This document shows, in pieces, positions 19,177 through 36,500 of a stretch of 64,000 bases of DNA. Source of the stretch: Maribacter algarum (ex Lu et al. 2025) (nom. illeg.) (GTDB lineage: Bacteria; Bacteroidota; Bacteroidia; Flavobacteriales; Flavobacteriaceae); contig CANMAW010000002.1 in assembly GCA_947495915.1 (NCBI GenBank), positions 682,001-746,000 of the forward strand. Direction: 5' to 3'. Numbering within the stretch: position 1 is the stretch's first letter; each line of letters begins with the position of its first letter. A program made the position numbers and the translations under genes. The notes under the pieces are model-generated. The model saw only the letters and a list, made by a program, of their open reading frames with translations, was not told the origin of the DNA and did no database searches.

Positions 19177-19731
19177 ATGAAAAAACAAACAGTTTATACC
19201 CTTTTGATTATCCTTCTAGTGTTATCGTTCTTTGTTACTCCATTAGGAGACTATAGTAAGATAGAATTGAATAGATTATTTGCTTCTTCCCCTACCATTA
19301 TTGATGTAGAACAAGGAGGGCAAATATCTAATTATGATTGGAGATTAAAAGACCAAAACTGGAATTTTATAAACTTTGAGAAATCTGAAGGAAAGGTGGT
19401 GTTCATTAACTTCTGGGCTTCATGGCATCTTCCATCAAGAGCTCAATTTAAAGACATTGTACAGCTGTACGAACAATATAGTGGACGTGTGGAGTTTTAT
19501 TTAATAACGGATGAAGAGCGAGCTCCTGTTGAAGAGTTTCTAGCTAAGAACCAATATGACATTCCTATTACGTATCAAATTATTGGAGATGCAAGCCCCA
19601 TTAAACTTTTGAAACCTCCCGGAAGTTATATTCTTGATAAAAATGGAATGATACGTGTACATCAAAACGATATTTCTGACTGGAATAATGTTGAAGTACG
19701 AACACTACTTGATCAACTTCTTAGTGAGTAA
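19177..19731 (+). CDS. TlpA-like thioredoxin-fold protein lacking the CxxC motif
   Basis: A 184-residue protein with one N-terminal membrane anchor or signal (about 5-23) and a periplasmic TlpA/AhpC-type thioredoxin fold. The position of the redox motif is clear ('VVFINFWASWHLPSRAQF'), but the cysteine pair is replaced by His84-Leu-Pro-Ser87. The protein contains no cysteine at all. The rest of the fold (cis-Pro region 'LKPPGSYILDKNGMIRVH') is intact, so it is a diverged and probably non-redox paralogue rather than a pseudogene. It is a tandem duplicate of the next gene, sharing the anchor, the 'NRLF/NRLL' linker and the C-terminal 'DWNN/AWND' ending. It overlaps that gene by 1 bp (TAATG), so the two proteins are made together. 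Confidence 0.88.
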   Translation: MKKQTVYTLLIILLVLSFFVTPLGDYSKIELNRLFASSPTIIDVEQGGQISNYDWRLKDQNWNFINFEKSEGKVVFINFWASWHLPSRAQFKDIVQLYEQYSGRVEFYLITDEERAPVEEFLAKNQYDIPITYQIIGDASPIKLLKPPGSYILDKNGMIRVHQNDISDWNNVEVRTLLDQLLSE

Positions 19732-20291
19732 TGAGAATTACAAAAAAACAGCTTGCTAATGCAATTTTCATCGCGGTTATTGCAATCGTCTTTTTTACAC
19801 CAGTTGGTTTCTCAGTAAAAGTATTTGTGAACAGGTTATTATCTGTAAGCCCCAAAGAATTAGTGGTTAGTGACCAACTACAACTCACCGATTACAATTG
19901 GAAATTAGTTGGCCTTAATGGCGAATTATTTGATTTTGATACGGTTAAAGGTCAGGTGATTTTGGTTAACTTTTGGGCAACTTGGTGTCCTCCATGTGTG
20001 GCGGAAATGCCTGAACTTCAAAAGCTATATACAGATTATAATCAAGATGTCGTTTTTGTTTTTGTTGCGCAAGACGAGGTGACAAAAATTGAAGATTTTT
20101 TAAATAATAATGAATATGATTTTCCTGTTTTTTTAGAAAAAACTCATTCGCCTGACTTGTTAGATTCTAAATACTTACCAACGACTTATGTGATTGACAA
20201 AAAAGGGGTAATTCGAGTTTCTAAAACGGGAGCAGCAGCATGGAATGACAACGATGTGAGAGCTTTATTAGATGCTATGCTTTCTGAGTAG
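19731..20291 (+). CDS. TlpA-like membrane-anchored thiol-disulfide oxidoreductase
   Basis: A 186-residue protein with an N-terminal membrane segment (about 9-25) and a thioredoxin/TlpA domain. The active site is C86-P-P-C89 in 'VNFWATWCPPCVAEMPEL' and the cis-Pro loop is 'SKYLPTTYVIDKKGVIRVSK'. Such proteins reduce disulfides in periplasmic targets, for example during cytochrome c maturation or reductase recycling. It is translationally coupled to the preceding CxxC-less paralogue. Its 3' end overlaps the convergent crtZ by 17 bp. Confidence 0.9.
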   Translation: MRITKKQLANAIFIAVIAIVFFTPVGFSVKVFVNRLLSVSPKELVVSDQLQLTDYNWKLVGLNGELFDFDTVKGQVILVNFWATWCPPCVAEMPELQKLYTDYNQDVVFVFVAQDEVTKIEDFLNNNEYDFPVFLEKTHSPDLLDSKYLPTTYVIDKKGVIRVSKTGAAAWNDNDVRALLDAMLSE

Positions 20292-20757
20292 TACTTTGGT
20301 TTTTTGATGGTTGTTTTTTGAAATATTTGAACGGAACAATCAACATACCAAAACATTCTCCATGATCTTTTCCTAAGTGCTTATGATGTATTTTATGTGC
20401 TCTACGCACTCCTTTCGCATACCAATGATTGGCATTTCTAAAAAGTTTGAAGCGTTGATGAATAAAGATGTCATGCACCAAGAAATATGCAATACCGTAG
20501 GCCAATATTCCAAAACCTAAAGCCCACCCGTACCACCAACCATTAGCTCCAGCATAAAACAAAGACATACTTATGACGGCATAAAAGGCAAAAAATGTAT
20601 CATTTCTTTCCCACCAAGAGTCATGATCTTTGTGGTGATGGTCTTTATGTAAACTCCATAGAAAACCATGCATAACGTATTTATGCGTAAACCAAGCCAT
20701 AAACTCCATGATAGAAAATGTACCTAAAAAAATAAGGATCCAGAGTAGTGAATTCAT
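20275..20757 (-). CDS. crtZ: Beta-carotene hydroxylase CrtZ
   Basis: A 160-residue integral membrane protein of the fatty-acid hydroxylase superfamily with the di-iron histidine boxes of CrtZ: 'HKYVMH', 'HKDHHHKDH', 'HDIFIHQRF' and 'HKIHHKHLGKDHGECFGML'. It hydroxylates the beta rings of beta-carotene at C3 and C3' to give zeaxanthin. It is the last gene of the operon, 2 bp after crtB. No lycopene cyclase (crtY) or GGPP synthase (crtE) is in the window, so those steps must be encoded elsewhere. The C-terminal 15 residues are polar and rich in Lys, Gln and Thr. Confidence 0.93.
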   Translation of the reverse strand: MNSLLWILIFLGTFSIMEFMAWFTHKYVMHGFLWSLHKDHHHKDHDSWWERNDTFFAFYAVISMSLFYAGANGWWYGWALGFGILAYGIAYFLVHDIFIHQRFKLFRNANHWYAKGVRRAHKIHHKHLGKDHGECFGMLIVPFKYFKKQPSKNQSTTQKA

Positions 20758-20759
20758 TC

Positions 20760-21599
20760 TTAAACTAAGTGTAATTTGTAATTAACATATGATTTTGCAA
20801 GAACTCCAAATTTTTCATAATTCGGTACCCGTATTCGGGCATCCTTAATTTGCATTGAGGGAGTTCTTTGCAATTTTTCTAATAATTTATAATAATATCG
20901 ATAAGCTGTGTATACCCCGAATTTAGCTTCCGCTGGTAGTTTTATAATACCAATATAGCCTTTTTTGAAATCTTCTTTTATTTCAGAAACAATTAGCTGT
21001 TTTGAATTTTCATCGAGCTCTGTTAAATCTGCATGTGGAAAATAGGCTCGATTCAAATCTTCGAAATCGGCTTTTAGATCTCTCAAAAAGTTTACTTTTT
21101 GAAAGGCAGAGCCTAAAGACATTGCTGATTCTTTAAGCTGTTCATATTTTGAATCATTACCTCGCACGAATACTTTAAGACACATTAAGCCTACCACATC
21201 AGCTGAGCCATAGATATATTCTTTGTACTCTGCATCTGTACGATAATTATTTTTGGTAAGGTCCATACGCATGCTCTTCAAAAAAGAGTTCACCAAATCA
21301 TAAGGTATTTCGTATTTGTGAAAGGTATGCTGAAACGAATTTAAAATAGGATTTAAGCTAATTTTATCAGCGATAGCGCATTTTAAATCTTCCTCAAATT
21401 TATTGAATAAAGTCGTTTTGTCATAGTCATGAAAGGTGTCGACAATCTCATCAGAAAACCGAACAAATCCATAAATGTTATAGATATCACTACGTATTTT
21501 AGGACTCAGCATTTTTGTTGCTAGGCTAAAAGAAGTACTATAAGACTGTGTAACTATTTTACTGCAGTCATAAGAAACCTTGTCAAATAAACTTTTCAT
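20760..21599 (-). CDS. crtB: Phytoene synthase CrtB
   Basis: A 279-residue squalene/phytoene synthase family protein. The two aspartate-rich magnesium/diphosphate-binding motifs are visible as 'FVRFSDEIVDTFHDYD' (about 46-61) and 'NFLRDLKADFEDLNRAYFP' (about 170-188); 'YIYGSADVVGLMCLKVF' is another family block. It joins two geranylgeranyl diphosphates to make phytoene, the first carotenoid. It begins 3 bp after crtI and ends 2 bp before crtZ, a tight operon. Confidence 0.93.
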   Translation of the reverse strand: MKSLFDKVSYDCSKIVTQSYSTSFSLATKMLSPKIRSDIYNIYGFVRFSDEIVDTFHDYDKTTLFNKFEEDLKCAIADKISLNPILNSFQHTFHKYEIPYDLVNSFLKSMRMDLTKNNYRTDAEYKEYIYGSADVVGLMCLKVFVRGNDSKYEQLKESAMSLGSAFQKVNFLRDLKADFEDLNRAYFPHADLTELDENSKQLIVSEIKEDFKKGYIGIIKLPAEAKFGVYTAYRYYYKLLEKLQRTPSMQIKDARIRVPNYEKFGVLAKSYVNYKLHLV

Positions 21600-21602
21600 A
21601 AG

Positions 21603-23066
21603 CTATTGGTTATTATCTTTTACAATTAATTCAGAAACCAGTTTTCCTGAAATTAGTGCGGGGGGAACTCCGGGTCCGGGTACTGTAAGTTGGCCTGTGA
21701 AAAATAGATTTTCCACCTTCCTACTTTTTAATTTTGGTCGTAGAAATGCTGTTTGTAAAAGGGTATTTGCTAATCCATATGCATTTCCTTTATAAGAATT
21801 GTATTCTTCAATGAAATCATTTACACAAAACGATTCTTTGAAAATGATATGGTTTTCTATATGTTGTCCCGTTTTATCTTGAAACCTATTTAAAATTAAA
21901 TCAAAATATTGATTTCTTAATTCAGGTGTATCTTCCAAGCCTGGTGCAATAGGAATTAAGAAAAATGCTGTTTCGCAACCTTCTGGAGACATAGTTTTAT
22001 CTGTTATTGAAGGGAAATTTGCGTAGAAGAGTGGGGCAGTAGGCCATTTAGGTTGATCATAAATCTCTTCTGCATGTAATTCAAAATCAGTATCGAAAAA
22101 AAGATTGTGATGTTCAACATTGCTCAGTTTTTTGTCAAAGGCAACGTAAAATAATAAAGAGGAAGGGGCGAAAGTTTTTTTAGACCAGTAAGATTCTGAA
22201 TACTGTCGATATACCTTGTCAAGTAAGGTTTCAGAATGGTGGTAATCAGCACCACTAAGCACGATATCACATAGTTCGGTTTTACCATTCGTAATTACTC
22301 CAACCGTTTTTTTATTTTTCACCAGTATTTTTTCGATACCTGAGGCCGTGTTTATTTGAACACCTAATTCTTGAGATAGATCTTGCATAGCTTTTACCAC
22401 CTCAAACATTCCACCATTAGGATGCCATGTACCTAACCCAAAATCGGCATAATTCATAAAGCTATAAAACGAAGGGGTGTTGTTAGGTTTAGCTCCTAAA
22501 AATAATACGGGAAACTCTAAAGTGGCTACTAACTTCGGGTTTTTGAATTTTTTTCGAACTTCTCCGCTGATAGTTTTAAAAAATTGATCTAGTTTTAAAA
22601 TGGTGTCTTTCGTTACCAATTCAAACGGACTATTACCTGGTTTTAAAACTATTTTATCGATTGCAATACGATAATTTTCTTGGGCAGAAGCAATGAATTT
22701 TTTTAAATGTTTCGAACTTCCTTTTTCAATTCTTTCAAATTCCACACATATTTTGTCTAAAGAATCTTCAATGGTAATAATATCATCAGTAAAGAAAACT
22801 CTGTAAGCAGGACTAAGCTTGTTCAACACGTAATAGTCAGATGTTTTTTTGCCAAAATCAGCAAAAAACTTTTCAAAAATATCAGGCATCCAATACCAAC
22901 TTGGCCCTATATCAAAGGTAAAGCCATCTTTTTTTAACTGTCTTGCTCTTCCGCCGATAGTTTTATTTTTTTCGTAAATGACAACTTTAAAACCTGATTT
23001 CGCAAGATAACAAGCCGCTGAAAGCGATGAAAATCCAGAGCCTATTATAATTACTTTCTTACTCAT
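21603..23066 (-). CDS. crtI: Phytoene desaturase CrtI
   Basis: A 487-residue FAD enzyme of the CrtI/amine-oxidase fold. The N-terminal Rossmann motif is 'VIIIGSGFSSLSAACYLAKS', followed by 'YEKNKTIGGRARQLKKDGF' and 'DIGPSWYWMPD'. The C-terminal FAD-binding block is 'NLFFTGQLTVPGPGVPPALI' with 'SGKLVSE'. It converts phytoene to lycopene. It lies 22 bp downstream of the MerR/B12-type regulator and directly before crtB, so pigment synthesis should respond to that regulator. Confidence 0.94.
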   Translation of the reverse strand: MSKKVIIIGSGFSSLSAACYLAKSGFKVVIYEKNKTIGGRARQLKKDGFTFDIGPSWYWMPDIFEKFFADFGKKTSDYYVLNKLSPAYRVFFTDDIITIEDSLDKICVEFERIEKGSSKHLKKFIASAQENYRIAIDKIVLKPGNSPFELVTKDTILKLDQFFKTISGEVRKKFKNPKLVATLEFPVLFLGAKPNNTPSFYSFMNYADFGLGTWHPNGGMFEVVKAMQDLSQELGVQINTASGIEKILVKNKKTVGVITNGKTELCDIVLSGADYHHSETLLDKVYRQYSESYWSKKTFAPSSLLFYVAFDKKLSNVEHHNLFFDTDFELHAEEIYDQPKWPTAPLFYANFPSITDKTMSPEGCETAFFLIPIAPGLEDTPELRNQYFDLILNRFQDKTGQHIENHIIFKESFCVNDFIEEYNSYKGNAYGLANTLLQTAFLRPKLKSRKVENLFFTGQLTVPGPGVPPALISGKLVSELIVKDNNQ

Positions 23067-23088
23067 TTAAAGTAGTTTTATTGAGGTT

Positions 23089-23988
23089 TTACAGTTGCGA
23101 AACCAGTTGTTCTATTGATGTAAATGCACTAATATTTTTAGGGAGGGCTACAGTTGATAAATGCTTTGTTTGATAACCCAAAACCCATAATTTACAGCCT
23201 CCGTGTTTTTTACTCAAAGTCTCAAATTCACTGATGAAATTCGTTAATTTTTCTTTTGAAGGCGCAATGGTGAAATAAGATACAAAATGTAATTTGTCGA
23301 AATATTTCATTACATCTTCAAGGGTTTGCAATGGTACTGCTTGTCCTAAATAAATAGATTTATATCCTCGAAGAACTATTTCGTAATTGATATATAAAAG
23401 ACCGATTTCATGAATTTCATTTTCCGGTAAAAACGGTACGAAAATTTTATCAGCTTGTTTGTTGTTTTGAGACTGTAACTTTTCTGTATTGCTTGTAATT
23501 TTTTGCTTTATCAAAGAGGTGATAAAATGTTCATGTGCAGGACTAATCGTAGAAGTTTGCCACAAAAGCCCTAATTCAATTAATAGAGGTATAAAAACAT
23601 CTTGAAAAATTGTTTTAAATGAATTTGAAATCAAAAGACTATCATAAGTTTCAGAAAACAGCGTTTCATTAAAATTGATCATAGCCAATTTAAATGAGCT
23701 AATGGCGAAATTGTTTACACTGTTTTCAGCAACAATGTCTTTAACAATTAACGGAATATTTGCTTCAGGAATTTTAGCAATTTTAGAAATTTTAAACCCG
23801 TTATTATAAAGCAGGGTAATATTTAAGAGCTTCTGAAGACTTGATAAACTATAAGTTCTAATATTTGTTGCGGTGCGTTCGGGGGTTAAAAGATTATATC
23901 TTTTTTCCCAAATTCTTATGGTATGAGCTTTAATACCTGAAAGGTTTTCTAAATCTCGAATACTGAATGACTTTTTTACATTGTTCAT
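23089..23988 (-). CDS. carH: CarH-like MerR regulator with cobalamin-binding domain (candidate B12 photoreceptor)
   Basis: A 299-residue protein. Residues 7-75 form a MerR-type winged helix ('FSIRDLENLSGIKAHTIRIW', 'EKRYNLLTPERT'). Residues about 95-175 form a helical B12-binding cap and about 180-299 a Rossmann-like B12-binding domain ('DKIFVPFLPENEIHEIGLLY'). The two CarH signatures are both there: Wx9EH (W143, E153, H154 in 'LLWQTSTISPAHEHF') and ExHxxG (E191, H193, G196), where the His is the lower axial cobalt ligand in Thermus CarH. CarH uses adenosylcobalamin to repress carotenoid genes in the dark and is released by light. First position in a crtIBZ operon fits the same role here. Light control is inference, and the symbol is by analogy. 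Confidence 0.85.
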   Translation of the reverse strand: MNNVKKSFSIRDLENLSGIKAHTIRIWEKRYNLLTPERTATNIRTYSLSSLQKLLNITLLYNNGFKISKIAKIPEANIPLIVKDIVAENSVNNFAISSFKLAMINFNETLFSETYDSLLISNSFKTIFQDVFIPLLIELGLLWQTSTISPAHEHFITSLIKQKITSNTEKLQSQNNKQADKIFVPFLPENEIHEIGLLYINYEIVLRGYKSIYLGQAVPLQTLEDVMKYFDKLHFVSYFTIAPSKEKLTNFISEFETLSKKHGGCKLWVLGYQTKHLSTVALPKNISAFTSIEQLVSQL

Positions 23989-23995
23989 AGTTTAG

Positions 23996-24025
23996 TAAAA
24001 ATAGTTAAACAAATTGAGAATTCAA
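23996..24025 (-). promoter_or_regulatory. Candidate promoter of the carH-crtIBZ operon
   Basis: On the minus strand TTG (24025-24023), 19 bp, then TATTTTTA (24003-23996), one mismatch from TAnnTTTG. It ends 7 bp before the ATG, giving a very short or absent leader. Confidence 0.5.
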
Positions 24026-24026
24026 T
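24013..24026. promoter_or_regulatory. Inverted repeat overlapping the carH promoter
   Basis: ATTGA-GAAT-TCAAT, a 5 bp inverted repeat with 4 bp spacer, covers the -33 element. This is where an autorepressor would be expected to bind. It is short and AT-rich, so chance is possible. Confidence 0.35.
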
Positions 24027-24080: not shown

Positions 24081-24084
24081 AAAG

Positions 24085-24168
24085 TGCGCACGAGAAGACT
24101 CGAACTTCCACGGCCTAATGGCCACCAGCCCCTCAAGCTGACGCGTCTACCAATTCCGCCACGTGCGC
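24085..24168 (-). tRNA. tRNA-Leu (anticodon GAG)
   Basis: Read on the minus strand, GCGCACG (acceptor 5' side) pairs with CGTGCGC near the 3' end. A D-arm with GGCGGAATTGGTAGACGC, an anticodon stem-loop with loop TTGAGGG (anticodon GAG), a long variable arm (TGGCCATTAGGCC type) and a T-arm with GTTCGAGTC are all visible. The long variable arm and anticodon identify a class II leucine tRNA reading CUY codons. CCA is not encoded. The gene stands alone between the crt operon and the giant adhesin gene. Confidence 0.93.
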
Positions 24169-24189: not shown

Positions 24190-24526
24190 GATAAAAAAGT
24201 ATTATTTGTGAGTACGTTATAGGGAGTAATTTATAAATAATGTTATTCTTTGGCGGTGAATGCATTTTTACGTAAAAAAACGCCGTATAAACCAAGTTTT
24301 AAAAGTAGTTTTTGACTGTAGCTATACGTGTTACAAACAGAGAATTTGTAGGTTTTTATCACTGTTTTTAAAATTTGTTAAGGCCTTATTAAATCCTTTG
24401 TTTACATCATTATTGACATTGTCAACAGCCTAAGGGGTTTTTACAACATATTATTTGTAAAGAGCCTCAGTTGTTTTTTTTTTGGAAAAGGACTCCCCAT
24501 GTCTTATACCAAAAAAAAGAATTGAA
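24190..24526. other. Intergenic region upstream of the giant adhesin gene
   Basis: About 340 bp without a gene. It holds the tRNA promoter at its left edge, a perfect short palindrome at 24413-24425, and a loose -7-like TATTATTTG at 24449-24457. No good TTG partner at about 19-23 bp and no transcription-stop hairpin are seen. Confidence 0.5.
24413..24425. promoter_or_regulatory. Perfect palindrome TTGACA-T-TGTCAA
   Basis: A 6 bp inverted repeat with a single central base, 102 bp before the adhesin ATG and just upstream of a loose -7-like element. This is the form and place of a dimeric operator site. The binding factor is unknown. Confidence 0.4.
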
Positions 24527-27500
24527 ATGATACGCAAATTATTGTTTTTAGTTTTACTAATCGGAACAACGATTTCAGTAAAAGCACAATTAAGTGATTT
24601 ACACTACTTACCGCCTTTAAAGCAAGGGCAAAATAATGCAGGTATTCGTGAGCAGGCAATTTACTTGTCAACTCCTGAACCAACGACCTTTACCGTAAAC
24701 GCATATCGAGGTACTAGTACAACACCAATTGCAACATTTTCAATTTCAAATGTTAGCCCTGCGGTGTACACACTTGCTAATGGTGATAATAACATCACCT
24801 TAGTGAATAACGCTAACACCGGGGTGGTCTTGAATAATAGTGGATTGCGTTTTGTTTCGCCTAGTGGAAATAAGTTTTATGTGAACTATCGTGGTAGTAG
24901 TTCAGCACAATCTGCTTCATTAACTTCAAAAGGCCGTGTGGCAATGGGTACCAAATTTAAATGGGGAGGTATACCGAATTTAGGTGCACATGTTTCAAAG
25001 TCGAATACTTTAGGAATAATGGCAACTGAAGATAACACTACCATTAATGTTTTTGGTTATGACCCTGACTGTGAATTTCGACTTGGTAATAATGTTGGTG
25101 GCATTACCGATAACACCTATCAAATTACTTTAGATGCTAATGAATCTTTTGTTTTTGAAGCTTACGTCGGAAATAATCCTATAGAGGCAAACAGAGCCGG
25201 GTGGATTGGTGCTTCTATTGAATCGGATAAGGATATTGTGATCAGTAATGGGGCAATGAACTTTGGTAGACAGGTAAATGCGGCTAACCGTGATGCTGGT
25301 ATTGATCAACCCGTTCCTGAAAACAGATTAGGTAAAGAATATGTGTTTGTTCGTGGAAACGGAAATACAAACGGATGGACGGAATTTCCGCTACTTATTG
25401 CGATTGCTGATAATACGCAAATTTTCGTGAATGGGTCGGCGACTCCGATTGCTACGCTTAATAATGGCGATTACTTTGAAATACCAAGTAATATGTATTC
25501 GTCGAATACAGTGGGGGCAAATATGCTAGTTCAAACTTCAAAAGATGTCTATGCTTATCAATGTTTAGCTGGGGCCAGTGCTGTATATACACAAGGTTTG
25601 AATTTTGTTGCCCCAGTGAATTGTTTATTGCCTGATGTAATGGACAATATTCCTGATATTCGAAATATGGCGGGTACTACTGTTAGTGGTGGTTTAACTG
25701 TGATTGCTGCGGTTAATACACCGGACGCAAATATTATGGTTACCGATAGTAATGGAGCAGTTACCTTGCCACCATCAAACCCGGTGGCCGGTTCAAGTGA
25801 CTGGAAAACTTTTTATATTCCTAATCTAAATGGAAATGTAAGTGTTCAATCAACGGGTCCTATGGCTGTTGGTTTTTTCGGGTTTAATGGTGCTCGTGGA
25901 GTTGCTGGATATTTTTCAGGCTTCGATACGGTGCCAGAGGTAAACCTTGAAATTAGAGGAGGTACCGGGTGTTTTGTCGGGTCTTCGATTTTCGAAGCGA
26001 CAGGAAATTTTGATGCTTACCAATGGTTTCATGATGGGGTTTTAGTACCTGGAGCAAATGGACCAGGATACGCACCAACGGTAGCTGGAGATTACTTTGT
26101 ACGAGGAACCAAAGGCCCTTGTACCTATGATTCTCAATCTATTTCTGCATTGTATTGCGACCCTGATATTATCTTAAACAAAACCGTTGACAAACCGGAG
26201 ATCAATGAAGGCGAGACCGCTACATTTAGTATACGGGTACGAAATTTAGGAGTTGGCCCAGTAACCAATCTGCAAATCACCGATAACATTCCTGCTGGTT
26301 TAACCTTGTCTTCAGCCTTTACAATAACAGGAAGTTGGAGTGGTAATACTTGGAACATTGGAACTTTAGAGGGTGGGGAAACTGCAGTTTTAGAATTAGA
26401 GGTTGTCGCTGATGAAATAGACACACTTCCTTTGTTGAGTCTGACTAATACGGCAACAAATACACAAGATCAAACAGATACCAATACAACGCCCGACAAT
26501 CCATCAGCAAGAATTATAGTACACAATGATTTTGATAATGATGGCGTCAATGATATTGTTGATGTTGATGACGACAACGATGGTGTGTACGATGAGCAAG
26601 AATGTCCGAATTTAACCTTTAATATATCCGGAGGAACTCCTCATAACAGCGACTTAATCAGTGTTGAGAATTATATGATTCTTGACATTTATAGTTTAGA
26701 TAATTCATTTAACCTTCAAATTAATGGCACCGATTTAGCTGGTGAAATTCAATTTCAGAACTCTCCAGGAAATTTTGCCCGATTTTCTGATGGTTTCGGT
26801 TATGGCGAAGATGGTAATCCTCAAGTTTATACCTTATCTGGTTCTGCTGAAACACCGTTGATAAGAGTCGTAGTTGATGAAATAGGTCAGTTTTCATTGT
26901 ATGGATCAAGAACTTCTAATGGTGCGTTAGAACCGATGTTTTTAACTACACCAGCTTCAACTTTCAGCTGGAATGCATCTGGTAATAATTCAATTAGTAT
27001 CAACCAAGCAGTAGTAGGGCCTACGAATATGAGTGGCGTGCTTTTAACTGCTGGTTGCGATACTGATAACGATGGTTTACCTGATCATTTAGATTTAGAT
27101 AGTGATGATGACGGGTGTAGCGATGCTAACGAGTTTTATAAGGAAGATGATGCTGATGGAGGCGATGGTGGTGAGTATGGTACAGGTGTTCCCGCAGTTG
27201 ACCCTAATGATGGTAGTGTTAATGCTGCAAGTTATGTGCAAGTTTTCGCTCCAGAAATACTACTAGGTAATACTACTGAAGATCTTGGTGGTACAGATAT
27301 CAATGGCCAACCTGTAAGTTTAGGTCAAACGTTTGAATATGTATTGAGATTTCAAAATACGGGTGATGATAATGCTACTAATTATACCATCAGAGATATA
27401 TTACCTAATAATATTACATTAGACAACGTAGATGTTTCGAATGCACCTGGTGTGACACATGTTTATGATATTAATACGAATACTATTAATTTCACAATTC

Positions 27501-30500
27501 CTGATGGTTTGGTTGAAATTGGCGACCCTCAATATAGCATACGAATTACAGTTACCCTAGCATCTAGTTGTTCTGATTTTGTTGATGCTTGTTCAACACA
27601 ATTAGTTAATAGTGCATATTCTACTTATGAAGGGGTTGTGAATACCAATGTGTTTACTGACGAAATGGGATCTAATTCCATTACCGCTTGTCCACGAACA
27701 CCTGAAACAGCTGAGAATTCTATATTAAATGACTTATCAAATTGTAACGAAGCACGCACGGTACAGCTTTGTGGTGATGACGTTACCCTTTCTGCTGGGC
27801 AAGGGTTTGTTACTTATAATTGGGTTTTAGATACCAACGGAAATGGCCAAGTAGATGGGAGTGATACTGTAATGAATGATGGTGATCCTGATACGAACCC
27901 GAGTACCTTATTGGTGACTAATGTGGGTACTTATATTGTAGAGAAAATTTCTGATGGTTCTTGTCCGAATCAAATTGAAGTATTAGATGTAGAGCGATTT
28001 GGAACCACCCAATCTAACCCCATTGTAGAGTATTTCAATCAGGTGAACAATGATGTAAATCCTGATAACGATTTACAAGGAGAAATTGTTACTTGTTCTA
28101 TTGATGGTGATGTTTTACCTAAGATATTTTTATGTGGAGCTAATGATGAAGCTACCATTCAATTAGGTATTTCTGATGCTCAAAGTATTGTTTGGCAGAA
28201 ACTAAATGAAGGAAGCTGTTCTGCTGCTTCTGATGATTGTGCTAATAAAAATGGTACTTGTACATGGAGCAATGTAGAAACGAATGATAACTACACTATT
28301 ACAGATGAAGGTGAGTACAGAATTGTAATCAATTATCAAAACGGATGTTTTAGTCGTTTCTACTTTAATGTTTATAAGAATGAACTAGACATCACCAATA
28401 CCTCAGAAGATATATTATGTAGTACCCCTGGTAACATTAGAATTACGAATGTAGGTGCTGGATATGGTTTTCAATTAGTTGATGTTTCTGATAATAGTAT
28501 TGTTGTTCCTTTTTCGGCAAATAATGGACCTAACTTTGATATTGCCACAAGTGGTACTTTCAAAGTGCAGATTACTGCCTTAAACCCTGCTGATAATACG
28601 CCGATAGCCGGTAGTTGTGTTTTTGAAACTGAAGATATTGGTATTTTAGAGCGAAACTTCACGGTTACGCTAGACACAACTCCTGCAGATTGTAATGCTT
28701 TAGGTACTATTTCGGTATCAGCATTAAATGCTTTACCTAATTATAGCTATGAATTACGTATTGATGACGGTACAAATGCAGGCCAAGGTACGCTCGTAAG
28801 TAGTCATCCTGCTTTGAATGATAACACCTTTACATTTACTGATGTAAATCCTGAAGATTATATTGTGATTACAAGAACCCAAGACGGGTGTTTTGATTCA
28901 CAACAAATTACTGTTACTGAAATTCCAACATTAACCTTAAATGCGGTAACTACAGAAAACATTACCTGTTTTCCAGGTATTGTAAACTTAACTCCCGATG
29001 GTGGCCTTCCTAGTCCTGATTATGAAATGGCGATATGGAGTAAAGATGGAACAGACCTATACACCGACGAAGCTTTAATTCCTGATGCTGATTTTCAAAC
29101 TACCGCAAGTTTCTTGTTTGGTGATTCTGGAAATCCACATGCGGAAGGAGATTATGTATTTATAGTTAGAGATGGTAATGGTTGTTTCGCGACCTCAAAC
29201 TCGGTTCGCGTTGATAATTTAGGTACCATGACTATTTCAGCAACCGATTCTGGAATAATATGTGCTGACTCGGCTACGGCCACGATGACCGTTACCGTTA
29301 CCGGAGGAACAGCGCCATATCAATATAGTTTAGATGGCGGAACAAATTATCAGACGCCAAATACATTTTCGAATCTTACCGCTGGTATTTATACCATTAC
29401 TGTAATGGATTCTAGTGGAAATACGGGTACAGGTTGTATTGAAAACTTTGACTATGAAGTGCAACAGCCATTCCGTTTGACAGCCTCTGCTTCGATAGTT
29501 GAGGATGCATCTTGTAACCCTTCTGGTGCCTTGGTTAAAATTTTGAATGCTAATGGAGGTCAATCACCTTATGAATATAGTTTTGATGGCGGTACTTCAT
29601 TTACTGCTAGCAATATGCAAAACTTATTGGCAGGTACCTACCAACTTGCTGTAAGAGATGCTTTAGGGTGTACTTTTGATACCGAAATTACAGTTCCGGC
29701 ATCTGCTGTTGATCCTAGTTTCACCAGTGATGTTGCTTATGATTGTGCGGGCGATGGAACGATTACTATAACTCCATCAAATACAACTGATTTTAACTAT
29801 TCGTATAGCTTAAATGGTACTGCAAATACACCAGAAGACTTAAATGTTTTCAGTAATGTCGCGAATGGTACACATACGGTAACTGTTGGATATTCTAGTG
29901 CCATTGCGGCTAATCAAAGTACCCTTTTTTATGAGAATTTTGGTTCAGGAATTACTACGCAGATTGGAGAAATAGGAGCCGGATATTGTTATGAACCTCA
30001 AGATGGTTCAACAACCAATTGTAATTTAGGTCCAGCTGGTATTTTAGTAGACGGTGAATATGCGGTTACTAATTTTGTTACCAATCCGATTCCTGCCTAT
30101 CGAAATCCTAATGACCACTCCGCAATTACTGACGGACGTTTCTTAGCTATTAATCCTAGTAATAACCTTGTTGGTAGTACGAGTGTGGTTTGGGAAAGAA
30201 CCAATTTAGAAGTGCTTCCAAATAGAGATATCACCATTTCGCTATGGGCATACAATCTACGTCAAACCAGTTTTGCTGGTAACAATCCTGAATTACTAAT
30301 TGAATTAGTTGATGGCAGCGGAACGGTAATCAATAGTATTGTTGTTCCTGAAATTCCTAAAAACACCAATGCAGATGATTGGCATGAGCGTACGGCAACT
30401 TTTAATCCGGGTGCAAATACATCCGTAGGTATTGTTTTAAGAAGCAACCAACCAAGTGATGATGGTAATGAGCTTATACTAGATGATATTACCGCTAGTC

Positions 30501-33500
30501 AACAACCTGAGATTTGTGACAAAACCACAGATATTACGGTTGTAGTTGAAGATAATCAAGAATTTAGCGCATCGCTTTTAGGTACGACAGATCCTACTTG
30601 TAACGGTGCTGCTGACGGATCTATCCGTTTTGAAGTAACAAATTTTGATGCCGCTACCGGATTCGAGTATTCTACTGACGGAGGTACAAATTGGACAAGT
30701 TCCTTAACATCACCAGTTACCACACCTGCTACTTTAGTAGATGGAAGTTACACGGTTGAAATCCGTAGAACAAATGATACCTCGTGTTCAACTGACTTTT
30801 TAGCAACTTTAACTCAGCCTGCGGCAATTGTGCCGAGTTTAAGTCAAACCGCATCTTACACTTGTTTTAACACAGGAGGAACATTAGAAGCTTCAGCAAC
30901 CGGTGGAACACCAAATTATGAATTTCAGTTGGAAGATTCTTCCAATGCGGTTATCGTTGCTTATCAAACAGAAACAACATTTAACAATGTAACCAACGGT
31001 GATTATCTCGTTCGCGTTAGAGATCAAAATGGTTGTGAGGTGATTTCAACAACTGCTATCACTGTTGACGGACCTGAAACGATTGATTTTGATGTGACTG
31101 CAACAGCATGTTATGATGGTCAAAACAATGCGAGTGTTACAGCTACGGTAAACACGGGTAATGGAGATTACAATTTTAGAATAAATGGAGGAGCATGGCA
31201 AACACCAACACCTTCAACTGCGACAAATTATACGTTTTTTGGACTAGCTAATGGTAGTTATGATATTGAAGTAACTGATGCTTTTGGTTGTGTTTCAAAC
31301 ATTGAGACGATCGTAATTGAACCTACAATCACTGCTCAAATTGATGTTGTTGATGTAAGTTCATGTGCCGATGGAAGTATCACAATCAGCGCTTCTGGAG
31401 GAGATGGAAATTATGCATATGCTTTCTTACCAACAGGTTCAACGGTACAAGATTCTGATTTTGCTGCAGCAAATGTTTTTACAATAACTAGCGGTAATGC
31501 TGGTGATTATGATGTGTATGCAAGAGATAACAATGGTACTTCACCATATTGTCAGTTCTTAGAAACGGTAACTGTTCAAACAGCACCAACGCTAACATTT
31601 ACTGCAACGCCTACTGATGCCGTTTGTTTTGGTGATACAGGTAGTATTGCTGTAACAATTTCAGCTGGTCGTTCACCTTATTCTTATGAATTGGTTGATG
31701 TTGACCACGGATTAGCTGATCAGACCGAAAATAATGTAGTTGGAACGACAAAATCATATTATAATTTAACTCCGGGTAGTTATACTGTAATCATTACAGA
31801 TGCTTTGGGATGTGTTATAACAGAAACAGGTGTTATCGTTGCCCAACCTGATGAACTAACCGCAGATATCACCGGAATTACTCCAGCATCGTGTACAGGA
31901 GATGTGAATGACTTCGGATTTGCATTCAGTGCTTACCCAACAACTTTAGGTACGATTGAATTTAGTGCTGATGGAGGTGCTACTTGGATTAGCGATAACA
32001 GCAATCCGGGAGTATCAGATCAGCTTACAGGATATCTTTCAGGAGATACGGTTTACCCATCTATGCGAACAATTGACGGTTCTGGCGGTACGGTTTGTCA
32101 AACAGATTTAGATCCGTTTATAATTCCGTATCCACTCGATGATTTAGATATTAGCATTTCGGCTATTATCGTAGATTGTACTGAATTACAAGTTACGGTG
32201 CAGGGTAGCGAAGGTGTTGCTCCTTACGAATATGCGTATTCTGATAATCCTGGTAATTTTGATCCAGCAACAGCCACATGGATTTTAGGAGGGTCAACGA
32301 ATAACCTTGGTAATCCTGTACCAGCTGGTGAAGGAATGTATCAATGGGTGAATTTAGTGCCTGGTAAAACCTATGTGTTTTATGTTAGAGATGCGAATGG
32401 TTGTGTGCGTCAAAGTACAGTCAACGTAAATGACATTACAACAAATCCTATGGATATTACAGCTACCTATGAGCCTTCTTGTAATGGAGCTAATGATGGT
32501 GAGATTACCTATACGATTGTAGATACTGATGGGTCAACTGAGGTCGATATGAACTGGACTTTATTTGATATCGATGACAACACTATTTTAACTAGTGGAG
32601 GAGATATTCCATATAACAATACCATTCATATTACTGGTTTATCTGCAGATGAATATTACATTGTAGTAACGCAAGTAGATGGTACTGGAACTGCACAATG
32701 TAATAGCGGTAGTGAAAATTTAATTTTAGAAGAATTAGACGCAATTACTGCAGCGCTCAATGTTTTAGAAGATATTAGTTGTGAATCTCCTGGTGTTATT
32801 TCTATTGATAATATTCAAGGTGGTGGTGGTACTTTTACCTATACGGTTACTGGTCCTGCTCCTTTTGTTACCATTACTGGTACCACTGATAACCCTATAG
32901 AGATTGCGCCAAACTCTCCGGCTGGTAATTACAATGTAGAAATTCAAGATCAATTTGGTTGTTCTCAAAACTTAGGTGATGTAGCTTTAAGTTTAGCACC
33001 AAACCCAACAATTAATAGCGTTGATGTAGAAAATTGTAGTGCTTCTAGTACAGTTACTATCGGGGCAACAAGTAGTTCAGCTGCTTCAATTTTATATTCA
33101 ATAGATGGAGGAATTACCTATGAAGATAACGCCGGGGTATTTACGAACGTAGCTGTAGGAAGTTACACGGCAGCAATCAAAGATGGAAATGGTTGTACTG
33201 CTACCGTTGCTTTTGATGTGCATCAAAGTTTACAGGCTTCGGTAGAACTAAGTAAAGCTTTAGGTTGTGGTGTAGGTCAAGAGGCTGAAATTTCAATTGA
33301 GGTGTCTGCTGGCTCTAGCAATTACGAATATGAAATTCTTAATGGTTCTGGTACTGTTGTTGCACGACAAGTATTAGCAACAAATCCATTAACTGAATTG
33401 GTGACAGTGGCTGATACATATACCGTAAATATTTTTGATACGGCAAGTGTACCAGAATGTATGCGAAGCTTTACCGTTGAGGTACCTTTGGCTATCGTTC

Positions 33501-36500
33501 CTGATTTTACGGCGACACCTAAAGACATTAGCTGTAATGGAGCTACTGACGGTTCAATTTCATTAACCCAAATTAACAATGGTAACAACCCATTGACCTA
33601 CAGTTTAGTTCCAAATAATGGAAGTTATGATGCTGCAACGGCTACCTATGAAAACCTTCCACAAGGTACTTATGAGGTAACTGCTACCGGTCCAAATGGT
33701 TGTACTACCATAATAAATAATATTTTGGTTAATGAACCAAACACCATAACTTTCGATGTGCCAACTGTTACTCCGTTTGGTTGCTCAAGTGACAACACAG
33801 CAGATAATGCAAGTGTTTCAATAAACACCAGTAGTATTGCAGGTGGTTCATCTACGTATGTACGCTATGAGTTTATAGATGATTCTAACGGAACTGTGTT
33901 GCAAAACGGAACAGATTCGAACTATATTTTTACGGACCTTTCTGGCGGTGATATTCGAGTAATTGTTCACGATGATAATGGTTGTAGCGGAACACAAACG
34001 GTTACTATTCCTGAATTTGATGAATTACAATCTGCTTCTATTACCGTAGATAACGCTATAAGCTGTAGTTCCTTAACCGAAAATATCAGTATTAATGTAA
34101 CGGGTAGTTTGAGTACGTATGTATCAGCCCCGGCTAATTACGAATTCAGACAGTTGCCATCGGGCACTAGTCAGGCTTCTAATGCATTCATGAATTTGGC
34201 ACCTGGTAATTATACATTTGTTGTTAGAAACGTAAATACGGGTTGTGAAATCACTGTTGAACATAGTGTTATTGATCCTAACACTTTTGATGTAACCGTT
34301 GAAAAACTATCCGACGCCATTTGTTTTGGAGGTGATGGTAGTATCAGACTGCTTATGTCTGATGCCACTTATGCTGGTAGTTTCACGTATAATATTTATG
34401 ATACTAATGGAACTCCAGCAGATCGTTCAGATGATGGCGTGGCAATAATAACAGGCAGTTCACCAAATTTTGGTCCAACACCTGCGATTAATGTACCTGC
34501 TGGGAATTACTTGGTAGAGGTTTCACAAGATGCATTTCCACACTGTAGTCAAGTACGATCATTTAATATAACAACACCAAGTGCAGCGGTGACCTTAGCG
34601 GCAATTGAAACTACTGATGTAGGTTGCAGCAATGATCAGGGTACTGCAAGAATTGAGCCTCAAGGTGGTCAAGCACCTTATGACATTACCTTAACGAATA
34701 CTACTACTGGTATGGTGATGAATATTACTGATGTTAATGTGCATCTGTTTCAAAACCTAGCTGCTGGTCAATATGATGTTGCAGTGACTGATAATTTAGG
34801 ATGCCCTAATACTTTTGCTACTGCATTTGAACTGGTAGTTCCAGATCCAATTTCAGGAACTATTTCGGCAACTACTTTGGCTTGTGAGAATGATGCAGAT
34901 GCTTCAGTTGAAATTAGTTTGAATCCTAGAAATGTTGTTTCTGATTATCGATTTGTATTAAATACCTACGATGATGCAAGTGGAACGACATTATTGCAAA
35001 GCACAACAGTTCAAAATACTCCGGTTTTTATTAATCAAGCTGCTGGGTTCTATTCTATTTCTGTACTAGATGCTATGGATTGTGCTTTTGAATCTACCAT
35101 AGTTGAGATTGTGAATCCTACAGAAACTTCAGGAATGTTAGTTACTGTTGCTTCTTTGACCTGTCAATCTGATGCAGAATTAGAACTAACGGCAAGTGGT
35201 GGAACTGCTCCGTATATGTGGAGTGTCGATGGAATTTCTTTTAATGCAATGAATGAAATCAATGGAGCGAATACGCATCTATTCCAAAATGTCACTCCTG
35301 GTTCATACCAATACTTTATTCGAGATAGTTTCAATTGTGTATCTACCTTTTCTAATGAGGTAACTATAAATCCTGTGGAAGCTTTAACACTAGATGTTGA
35401 TACTTCAGCAGCGATTGTAAACTGTAATGGTGAAAGTACCGCTTTGATAGAAGCAAATGCTGATGGTGGACTTGGTAATTACGAATATGGCTTATTCGCC
35501 GATGCAGGTCGCGTTAATGAAATAAGACCTTACCAAACATCAGGTACATTTGATAATTTACCTGCGGGCAATTATTTTGTGAGTGTTCAAAGTGAAGATT
35601 GTGAATTAACTTCTAATGAAATTGTGATCACTGACCCTGCAGTGTTAGAAGTTGTCGAAACTATTACCAATATTAGTTGTTATGGCGATGAAGATGGCAG
35701 CATTGTTCTAGACGTAACTGGTGGTTCTGGTGATTATCAGTATGCGATTTCTCCGAACTTAAATCAGTTTGATGATGAAAACAGTTTTGATGAATTGGGT
35801 GTAGGTGATTATACGGTAATTGTTCAAGATAGCAAAGGTTGTTTTGAATTGATTGAATTTTCTATCACTGAACCTGAAGTTTTAGAAATGACCTTAAGTA
35901 CTACTCCAGAGATTTGTGCAGGCGATAATGATGGAACAATTACTTTCAATATAACTGGAGGTACTGCTCCGTACAGTACTGCTCTTAATTCAGAAGATGA
36001 TGCCGATTTTGTAGAAGGTAGATTGACTATTGAAGATTTAGCTGGTGGCGTGTATTTCGTATATGTCAAAGATGCTAATGGTTGTACCTTAGATAGTGCA
36101 GTTACTATCGAGAATGGGGCTAACTTAAATGCTACTGCTGAAGTGATTTACGAGTGTTCAGGTAATACACCAGACAATCATCTAGAAATAGTTTTTGAAG
36201 ATGATACGGTTTCTGAAGATGTTCTTTATGCGCTAGATTCTACCGATCCTTCTGATTTTGTGTTAGATGCGAATTTTGAAAACATGACACCGGGCAGTCA
36301 TTATGTGGCAATTGTACATGCGAATGGTTGTATGAACACCATCAATTTTGAGGTTGTTGATTACGAACCATTACAGTTGACATTAACGCAGGTAAGTCTA
36401 AACGAAATCACGGCAACTGCAGCTGGTGGTAGAGAAGGCTACACCTTCTATTTTGATGATATTGATAATGGTGATGACCGTACGTTCTACATTAAAAGAA

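Follow-up and report, generated by a model that had tools for sequence, protein, structure and literature searches.

A CarH-like MerR regulator and its predicted photoprotection regulon in Flavobacteriaceae

The 64,000-nucleotide stretch of the Maribacter algarum genome that we analyzed (contig CANMAW010000002.1, positions 682,001 to 746,000; hereafter the window) encodes a MerR-type regulator at the head of a carotenoid operon. The protein is predicted to be a regulator of the CarH/LitR kind with a family-wide photoprotection regulon. We consider it rather probable that it is a CarH-like dark repressor of this regulon that would be released by light via bound cobalamin. An initial annotation of the window had proposed a B12-dependent light switch for the carotenoid operon; it was right in its core, wrong about the operator, and too small in scope.

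Four consecutive open reading frames (ORFs) on the minus strand encode the MerR protein, CrtI, CrtB and a CrtZ-like protein (Table 1). The ORF coordinates agree with the operon and the intergenic gaps of 22, 3 and 2 bp given in the initial annotation, and the two cobalamin signatures named there, Wx9EH (W143, E153 and H154) and ExHxxG (E191, H193 and G196), are both present in the protein and found family-wide. Pfam recognizes MerR_1 (E 1.8e-13) and B12-binding_2 (PF02607), and a PDB sequence search matches CarH. An AlphaFold2 model from 50 sequences (mean predicted local distance difference test score 87.7) has full-length Thermus thermophilus CarH (TtCarH, 5c8d) as its top Foldseek match (E 3e-13), and in VIA-align its residues 90-299 superpose on the cobalamin domain of TtCarH with Z 21 and a root-mean-square deviation of 2.3 over 195 residues. 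The model contains both the four-helix bundle and the Rossmann fold, and the Rossmann part aligns to CarH. MetH, AppA and other B12-fold proteins were rejected as the closest fold, as they match the model more weakly than CarH does; Z is about 19 for the photocobilin SasPcob and for CtMerR, and 17 for MetH.

We surveyed 149 Flavobacteriaceae genomes from 148 genera (completeness at least 90%) and found a match to the regulator in 133. One of these matches, in G033, comprises only the DNA-binding domain, and this genome was scored as lacking the regulator; G103, with a partial frame, was scored as a carrier and left out of the alignment. The alignment holds 144 proteins from 141 genomes, the window protein included (L005, the same gene as L185, was dropped). 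W143, E153, E191, H193, G140 and G215 are invariant in all 144 proteins, G196 is found in 138 and H154 in 128, with Arg in 13, Ser in two and Gln in one of the others. Conservation of at least 97% is reached by only 12 columns in the cobalamin-type domain; judged from this alignment, the conservation of the motifs is beyond chance. In the recognition helix RxWE(R/K)RY the residues R25, W27, E28, R30 and Y31 are likewise invariant. This family-wide conservation and the fold match to CarH bear out the CarH-like identity assigned in the initial annotation.

The promoter of the MerR gene contains a predicted operator. Footprinting of the family's promoters shows TAnnTTTG, in the window in the form TCAATTTG, which we take to be the Bacteroidota -7 element. 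In 88 of 143 MerR promoters the block TAnnTTTGTTTAAC has its first letter exactly 29 nt ahead of the ATG (one of the 144 upstream regions is too short for this count). TTTAAC follows TAnnTTTG, with at least five of its six letters, in 83 of 108 MerR promoters versus 13 of 168 controls from the same loci, and exact TTTGTTTAAC precedes 16 of 977 control ORFs, 15 of these 16 being crtI. When three promoter classes are aligned on TGTTTA, a second, inverted half-site appears 24 bp away. TAAACA (at least five of six letters) is found at this distance in 17 of 20 sites before photolyase operons that begin with what we take to be an SRPBCC-like gene, in 31 of 34 sites in MerR-crtI gaps, and in 17 of the 38 MerR promoters that are out of register with the start codon (eight have it at 25 bp); the background mean per distance is 0.5-1.1 in these three sets and 0.5-2.6 in all four. 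In 84 of the 88 in-register promoters the second half-site is filled by TGAACA, and since this belongs to the gene's own start, ATGAACA, coding constraint contributes to it. The consensus is TGTTTA-N18-TnnACA, which in the window runs from the -7 box to the start codon, as a two-mismatch form of the repeat with TGAACA. With the spacer g varied from 5 to 30, TGTTTA-Ng-TnnACA occurs in 97 of the 144 upstream regions at g=18 and in at most six at any other value; when only pairs lying wholly upstream of the ATG are counted, g=18 yields 18 and no other value more than five. The predicted operator is placed where a bound repressor would block RNA polymerase, and its presence in the regulator's own promoter gives good support to the autoregulation proposed in the initial annotation.

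That annotation had, however, placed the operator in an inverted repeat, ATTGA-N4-TCAAT, over the -33 element. The letters are present, but inverted repeats of this 5-4-5 form number 120 in the window, and a repeat at the same place is found in six of 96 family promoters, the window's included, as expected for a chance repeat. It overlaps the -7 element and not -33, because TCAATTTG occupies this place (Table 1). A switch for the carotenoid operon only, acting through this repeat, would account for the operon and the motifs, which are real; we regard it as highly improbable, as the repeat is at chance level and not conserved, and the operator described above occurs elsewhere in the genome. CarH-like direct repeats were also considered and rejected: in the MerR promoters, as in those of SRPBCC genes, no direct copy of TGTTTA stands out (the highest count, 13 of 88 at +42, falls within the gene), and the direct matches in the MerR-crtI gap (24 of 34 at +21, 33 of 34 at -21) reflect the near-palindromic right half, TGTTAAACA.

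The exact repeat TGTTTAA-N16-TTAAACA has 465 sites in the 149 family genomes, and its reversed control has 20. It is present in 124 of the 132 genomes that carry the regulator and in none of the 17 that do not (Fisher 1e-16, not corrected for kinship), with part of this signal stemming from the MerR-crtI locus itself. Ten of these 17 genomes are 90-96% complete and seven at least 99%, and neither group has a site. Only exact sites were used, because matches with up to two mismatches do not exceed the control (106 versus 113 in the window genome). TTTGTTTAAC alone, with 24 matches in the window genome versus 73 in the reversed control, is uninformative by itself; TANNTTTGTTTAAC has 27 sites in 14 genomes of the genus, many of them not upstream of recognizable light genes. 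The half-site also lies near photolyase and fasciclin genes in the window genome and the genus, among many sites elsewhere. Where residue 26 of the recognition helix is Lys, two of seven genomes have exact sites, versus 121 of 124 with another residue (131 rows; second copies, and genus genomes that have no counts, are not among them). By this contrast the operator goes with the MerR protein and not with a different regulator, although the contrast is essentially that of one clade, which tells against this reading; within the clade (support 82), L171 (G035) has Ile26 and four sites.

An alternative explanation assigns the operator to TetR_C_23, the regulator encoded in a TetR-UbiB operon, with the MerR protein acting elsewhere or only as a co-regulator. 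The TetR gene itself bears the operator, its match to TetR_C_23 is strong, and inverted repeats suit TetR proteins. However, this explanation is quite unlikely, as the half-site is the TnnACA of CarH, the operator is found in the MerR promoter and in the MerR-crtI gap of relatives, and exact sites are absent from the 17 MerR-less genomes and rare where residue 26 is Lys.

The genes marked by the operator suggest that in the majority of the family's sampled genera the CarH-like regulator also controls photorepair genes. The window genome has five exact sites and no exact control match (Table 1). The 174-aa gene downstream of the first is the one we take to be SRPBCC-like, and the gene that follows DUF2452 at the second is presumably TIGR03643-like. 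Among SRPBCC-gene loci of the family, 20 of 30 have the repeat in exact or one-mismatch form, versus none of 30 for the reversed control. In a sample of 30 exact-site loci (L407-L436), 23 sites lie upstream of a recurring class of genes: fasciclin (seven), the carH-crtI gap (six), SRPBCC-photolyase (four), DUF2452-photolyase and DUF2867-type SDR (two each), and TetR-UbiB and mevalonate-type kinase (one each). The other seven (L408, L415, L416, L418, L423, L426 and L428) fall outside these classes. A TspO gene stands ahead of SRPBCC-photolyase among the sampled loci, and the full repeat is found at the DUF2452 promoter in the window genome and in two of the 30 sampled loci. The initial description as a carotenoid operon switch is too narrow in scope, because the same operator also stands before genes for photolyase, UbiB, a mevalonate-type kinase and fasciclin.

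The composition of this gene set also bears on the possibility that the regulator binds cobalamin but senses the supply of B12 instead of light, with repression when B12 is plentiful. Such a role would agree with the invariant cobalamin-ligand positions and with the B12-dependent enzyme frames present in the genome. We consider it very unlikely, since the marked genes are of photolyase, carotenoid and isoprenoid type, with no gene of B12 metabolism recognized among those seen, and since light receptors are described as using W and EH to cap the Ado group (PMC8156234).

Table 1. Features of the operon and its promoter (window positions), and exact operator sites in the window genome
Feature	Position	Strand	Remarks
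CarH-like MerR regulator, 299 aa	23089..23988	-	MerR DNA-binding domain 8-73; four-helix bundle and Rossmann cobalamin-type domain ~90-299
crtI-type carotenoid desaturase	21603..23066	-	NCBIfam CrtID, above cut-off
crtB-type phytoene synthase	20760..21599	-	Pfam SQS_PSY
crtZ-like hydroxylase	20275..20757	-	Pfam FA_hydroxylase; no NCBIfam match
-7 element TCAATTTG of MerR promoter	24010..24017	-	family consensus TAnnTTTG
Predicted operator TGTTTA-N18-TGAACA	23982..24011	-	left half-site 24006-24011; right half-site 23982-23987, overlapping the start codon
Inverted repeat ATTGA-N4-TCAAT of the initial annotation	24013..24026	.	judged a chance repeat
Exact site 1			upstream of 174-aa gene (no Pfam match), then SDR, DNA photolyase
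Exact site 2			upstream of DUF2452, then a further gene, photolyase-type FAD protein, flavin reductase, DPRP
Exact site 3			upstream of TetR_C_23, then ABC1/UbiB kinase
Exact site 4			upstream of GHMP (mevalonate-type) kinase, between MVD decarboxylase and UbiA
Exact site 5			upstream of htpG, 166 nt away

Several further observations weigh against a cobalamin-dependent light receptor acting through this operator. CarH is defined by Wx9EH together with ExHx2G-x41-SxT/V-x22-27-GG (PMC8156234, PMC9304148), and the SxT/V...GG half is lost: position 239 is Phe in 114 of the 144 proteins, position 272, the second Gly of GG, is Gly in only five, and the window protein has S237-Y-F239 and G271-Y272 where this half is expected. 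The Rossmann family PF02310 fails to recognize the protein at E<=1e-3, and the NCBIfam CarH equivalog NF052513 gives 69.5 bits, far under its cut-off of 400. The residue after W143, at the position of H132 in TtCarH, is Gln in 128 of the 144 proteins and His in four; most of them, judged by this residue, therefore cannot form the bis-His light state of TtCarH. H154 is missing from 16 of the 144, yet operators persist in those genomes. On the side of the DNA, the operator pair is absent from the window's 22-bp MerR-crtI gap, eight of the 132 carriers lack an exact site (G026, G031, G042, G048, G050, G090, G095 and G131), and the DUF2452 promoter is weakly enriched for the half-site alone (five of 30 at 9/10 letters or better, null about 1.5). 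Finally, two carriers, G020 and G069, have neither PF01923 nor PF02572 and nonetheless keep the regulator motifs, with eight and two exact operators, respectively. The Gln at the H132 position is not fatal to a light response, because proteins that respond to light with Arg, Gln or Tyr at this position have been described (PMC11796333). Three of the four elements of the SignatureFinder light-responsive signature reported there (GxxW, EH, GxxH and GxxxP; PMC11796333) are present in the window protein; in GxxH, N190 replaces the Gly, which is found in 14 of the 144 proteins. Because the SxT/V...GG half is lost, PF02310 is silent and the H132 position is Gln, we call the regulator CarH-like and not CarH.

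Candidate cobalamin enzymes are encoded in the window genome. It has a PF01923 adenosyltransferase of 191 aa, a family present in 143 of the 149 genomes; PF02572 was not found in it. A 732-aa frame with PF02310 has the size of a methylmalonyl-CoA mutase, and a 905-aa frame with PF02607 and PF02310 is presumably MetH-like (both enzyme names are our assumption). Adenosylcobalamin (AdoCbl) is a plausible chromophore. G020 has mutase-sized PF02310 frames and therefore probably needs AdoCbl, and G069 has only a MetH-sized one; these two genomes may import AdoCbl, possess an unrecognized enzyme or use another ligand. G069 (L074), a genome of 1.7 Mb, has retained the CarH-like gene, the crt operon and two operators.

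The same regulon and operator might be served without cobalamin, in the manner of CarA or class II LitR, with a partner (an antirepressor, a LOV protein or a porphyrin) sensing light or singlet oxygen. The degenerate Rossmann half of the motif, the silence of PF02310, the Gln at the H132 position, the proteins without H154 and the two carriers without either adenosyltransferase family fit this explanation, and CarA of Myxococcus xanthus (PMC9304148) and PmlR2 with its LOV partner (PMC9758184) are precedents as described. However, W143 and H193 are present in all 144 proteins, whereas CarA lacks the Trp; class II LitR is described as having the four-helix bundle without a Rossmann B12 domain, whereas the model matches CarH across the whole cobalamin domain, including the Rossmann part. 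We therefore regard a cobalamin-free regulator as unlikely, though it is the likeliest of the rival explanations.

The CarH-like repressor that we favor would work as follows. In the dark it would occupy TGTTTA-N18-TnnACA over the -7 box and the start region, at its own promoter and at others, and would keep the carotenoid genes, two photolyase-type operons, the TetR-UbiB operon, the mevalonate-type kinase gene and perhaps htpG repressed. Cobalamin, most likely AdoCbl, would be held between the cap formed by W143, E153 and H154 and the ligand H193. Light would cleave the Co-C bond, the shape or assembly of the protein would change, the regulator would leave the DNA, and the photoprotection regulon would be turned on together. 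The gene, its fold, the invariant residues, the geometry of the operator, its co-occurrence with the regulator and the neighboring genes are seen by sequence; direct binding, dark repression, cobalamin binding and the light response we infer. The inverted half-sites suggest a contact with DNA unlike that of CarH tetramers on direct repeats. More tentatively, and with considerable doubt, the regulator could represent a separate branch of cobalamin photoreceptors that serves as the photo-oxidative master switch of Flavobacteriaceae (pigment, photorepair, UbiB kinase, isoprenoids and fasciclins) through a palindromic 30-bp operator. Its mechanism would not be that of TtCarH: there would be no bis-His adduct, an altered pocket for the nucleotide tail, probably another oligomer at the inverted sites, and possibly a cobalamin other than AdoCbl in genomes without the adenosyltransferase.

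As to the product of the operon, CrtI is recognized by Pfam Amino_oxidase and NAD_binding_8 and scores 716 bits against NCBIfam CrtID, a bifunctional phytoene/3,4-desaturase (cut-off 640). Because CrtI passes this cut-off and the four operon genes include no lycopene cyclase (the rest of the genome was not searched for one), zeaxanthin is only a guess. In most of the family loci listed, the MerR gene is followed by crtI, crtB and crtZ. Among the exceptions, the crt genes precede MerR at L129; at L115, L119, L127 and L143, in genomes of about 2 Mb, MerR has no adjoining crtI match; and at L164, L168 and L178 there are no crt matches at the MerR locus. At L169, L170, L172, L173 and L175-L177 the MerR copy is a divergent one, at a distance from crtIB. 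The divergent copies (L169-L177) are about 31-41% identical, mostly have Lys26 and mostly lie away from crtIB. In the promoters of L172, L173 and L176, TGTTTA is paired with TAGACA one base further out, and the operator may have co-evolved with these copies.

In one supported branch 15 of the 17 rows are without H154, as is L122 elsewhere; these proteins mostly have Arg instead, their genomes retain operators, and the upper-ligand pocket may differ. Two contigs titled as Rhizobium and Klebsiella metagenome-assembled genomes (L230 and L239) bear flavobacterial CarH-like genes and are probably mislabelled or mixed bins. Fasciclin (FAS1) genes have the operator or half-site upstream at L319 (6881-7423), L320 (8070-8588), L410, L412-L414, L417, L422 and L427. 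The microalgal FAS1 protein AstaP is reported to bind carotenoids (PMC10147662), and by analogy it is conceivable that an operator-marked fasciclin is a light-induced carotenoid carrier. The window genome also has a one-mismatch operator (L439, position 2209) between two divergent genes. Judged by their sequences, these genes are presumably peroxiredoxin-like and endonuclease-III-like.

Around the operon, a tRNA-Leu (gag) lies at 24084-24168, just upstream of the MerR promoter and on the same strand. The neighboring ORFs at 19177-19731 and 19731-20291 are presumably thioredoxin-like; the first lacks CxxC (WASWHLPSR) and the second has it (WATWCPPC). An ORF of 4120 aa at 24482-36844 is built of repeated modules, and its C-terminal end resembles gliding-motility adhesins.

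Flavobacteria are abundant in sunlit waters. If the CarH-like reading is true, one cobalamin-type protein would make both pigment and DNA repair answer to vitamin supply and to light in the majority of genera sampled, and would be a general light-protection switch. A palindromic CarH-type operator would then be a new mode of DNA binding for the CarH family and a possible green-light tool. The operator also supplies a list of candidate target genes in cultured members of the family.

That a flavobacterial MerR protein with a B12-binding domain heads zeaxanthin genes is already in print, for Flavobacteriaceae bacterium GF1 (PMC6974559). That report gives the gene order and suggests regulation under photooxidative stress; its available text describes neither operator nor regulon (PMC6974559). 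The GF1 relative L194 is 65% identical to the window regulator and has the same motifs and the same operator. Full-text searches of open PMC papers, a body that leaves most subscription papers outside, brought up no title or abstract opening in which this operator or a CarH-like regulon is named for flavobacteria. Light-induced carotenoid is described in Chryseobacterium lacus, with the regulator given in the available account as not known (PMC7064467), and a photolyase-related gene cluster is reported as enriched in proteorhodopsin-bearing marine flavobacteria (PMC5932025). MliR of Bizionia was considered as this protein and rejected, being described in the available text as lacking an effector domain (PMC9478572).

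CtMerR and SasPcob share the fold of the cobalamin domain with the window regulator and, like it, have a residue other than His in the place of H132 (Arg and Gln), while responding to light; the available text describes no operator or regulon for them (PMC11796333). Class II LitR proteins of Pseudomonas (PplR and PmlR) parallel the predicted regulon and operator with a light regulon of photolyase, cryptochrome and SDR genes and with paired half-sites, T(G/A)TACA-N12-TGTA(C/T)A (PMC9758184). They differ in having the four-helix bundle without a Rossmann B12 domain, in the LOV partner of PmlR2, and in the N12 spacer as opposed to N18, and the available account mentions no carotenoid operon in the Pseudomonas regulon (PMC9758184). 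CarA of M. xanthus is another MerR protein; it represses crt genes, as predicted for the window regulator, and its cobalamin-type domain is related, but it is reported as B12-independent and without the Trp of Wx9EH (PMC9304148). With CarH or class I LitR (T. thermophilus, Bacillus megaterium and M. xanthus) the window regulator shares the MerR domain, the four-helix bundle and Rossmann cobalamin fold, Wx9EH, ExHxxG, the RxWE(K/R)RY helix, the TnnACA half-site and the crt neighbors. It differs from them in the missing SxT/V...GG half and in Gln for H132. The CarH operator consists of tandem 11-bp direct repeats, nnnnTnnACAn (PMC9304148), whereas the predicted flavobacterial operator is an inverted pair, TGTTTA-N18-TAAACA, and, unlike CarH, the flavobacterial regulator is predicted to control a wider photoprotection regulon.

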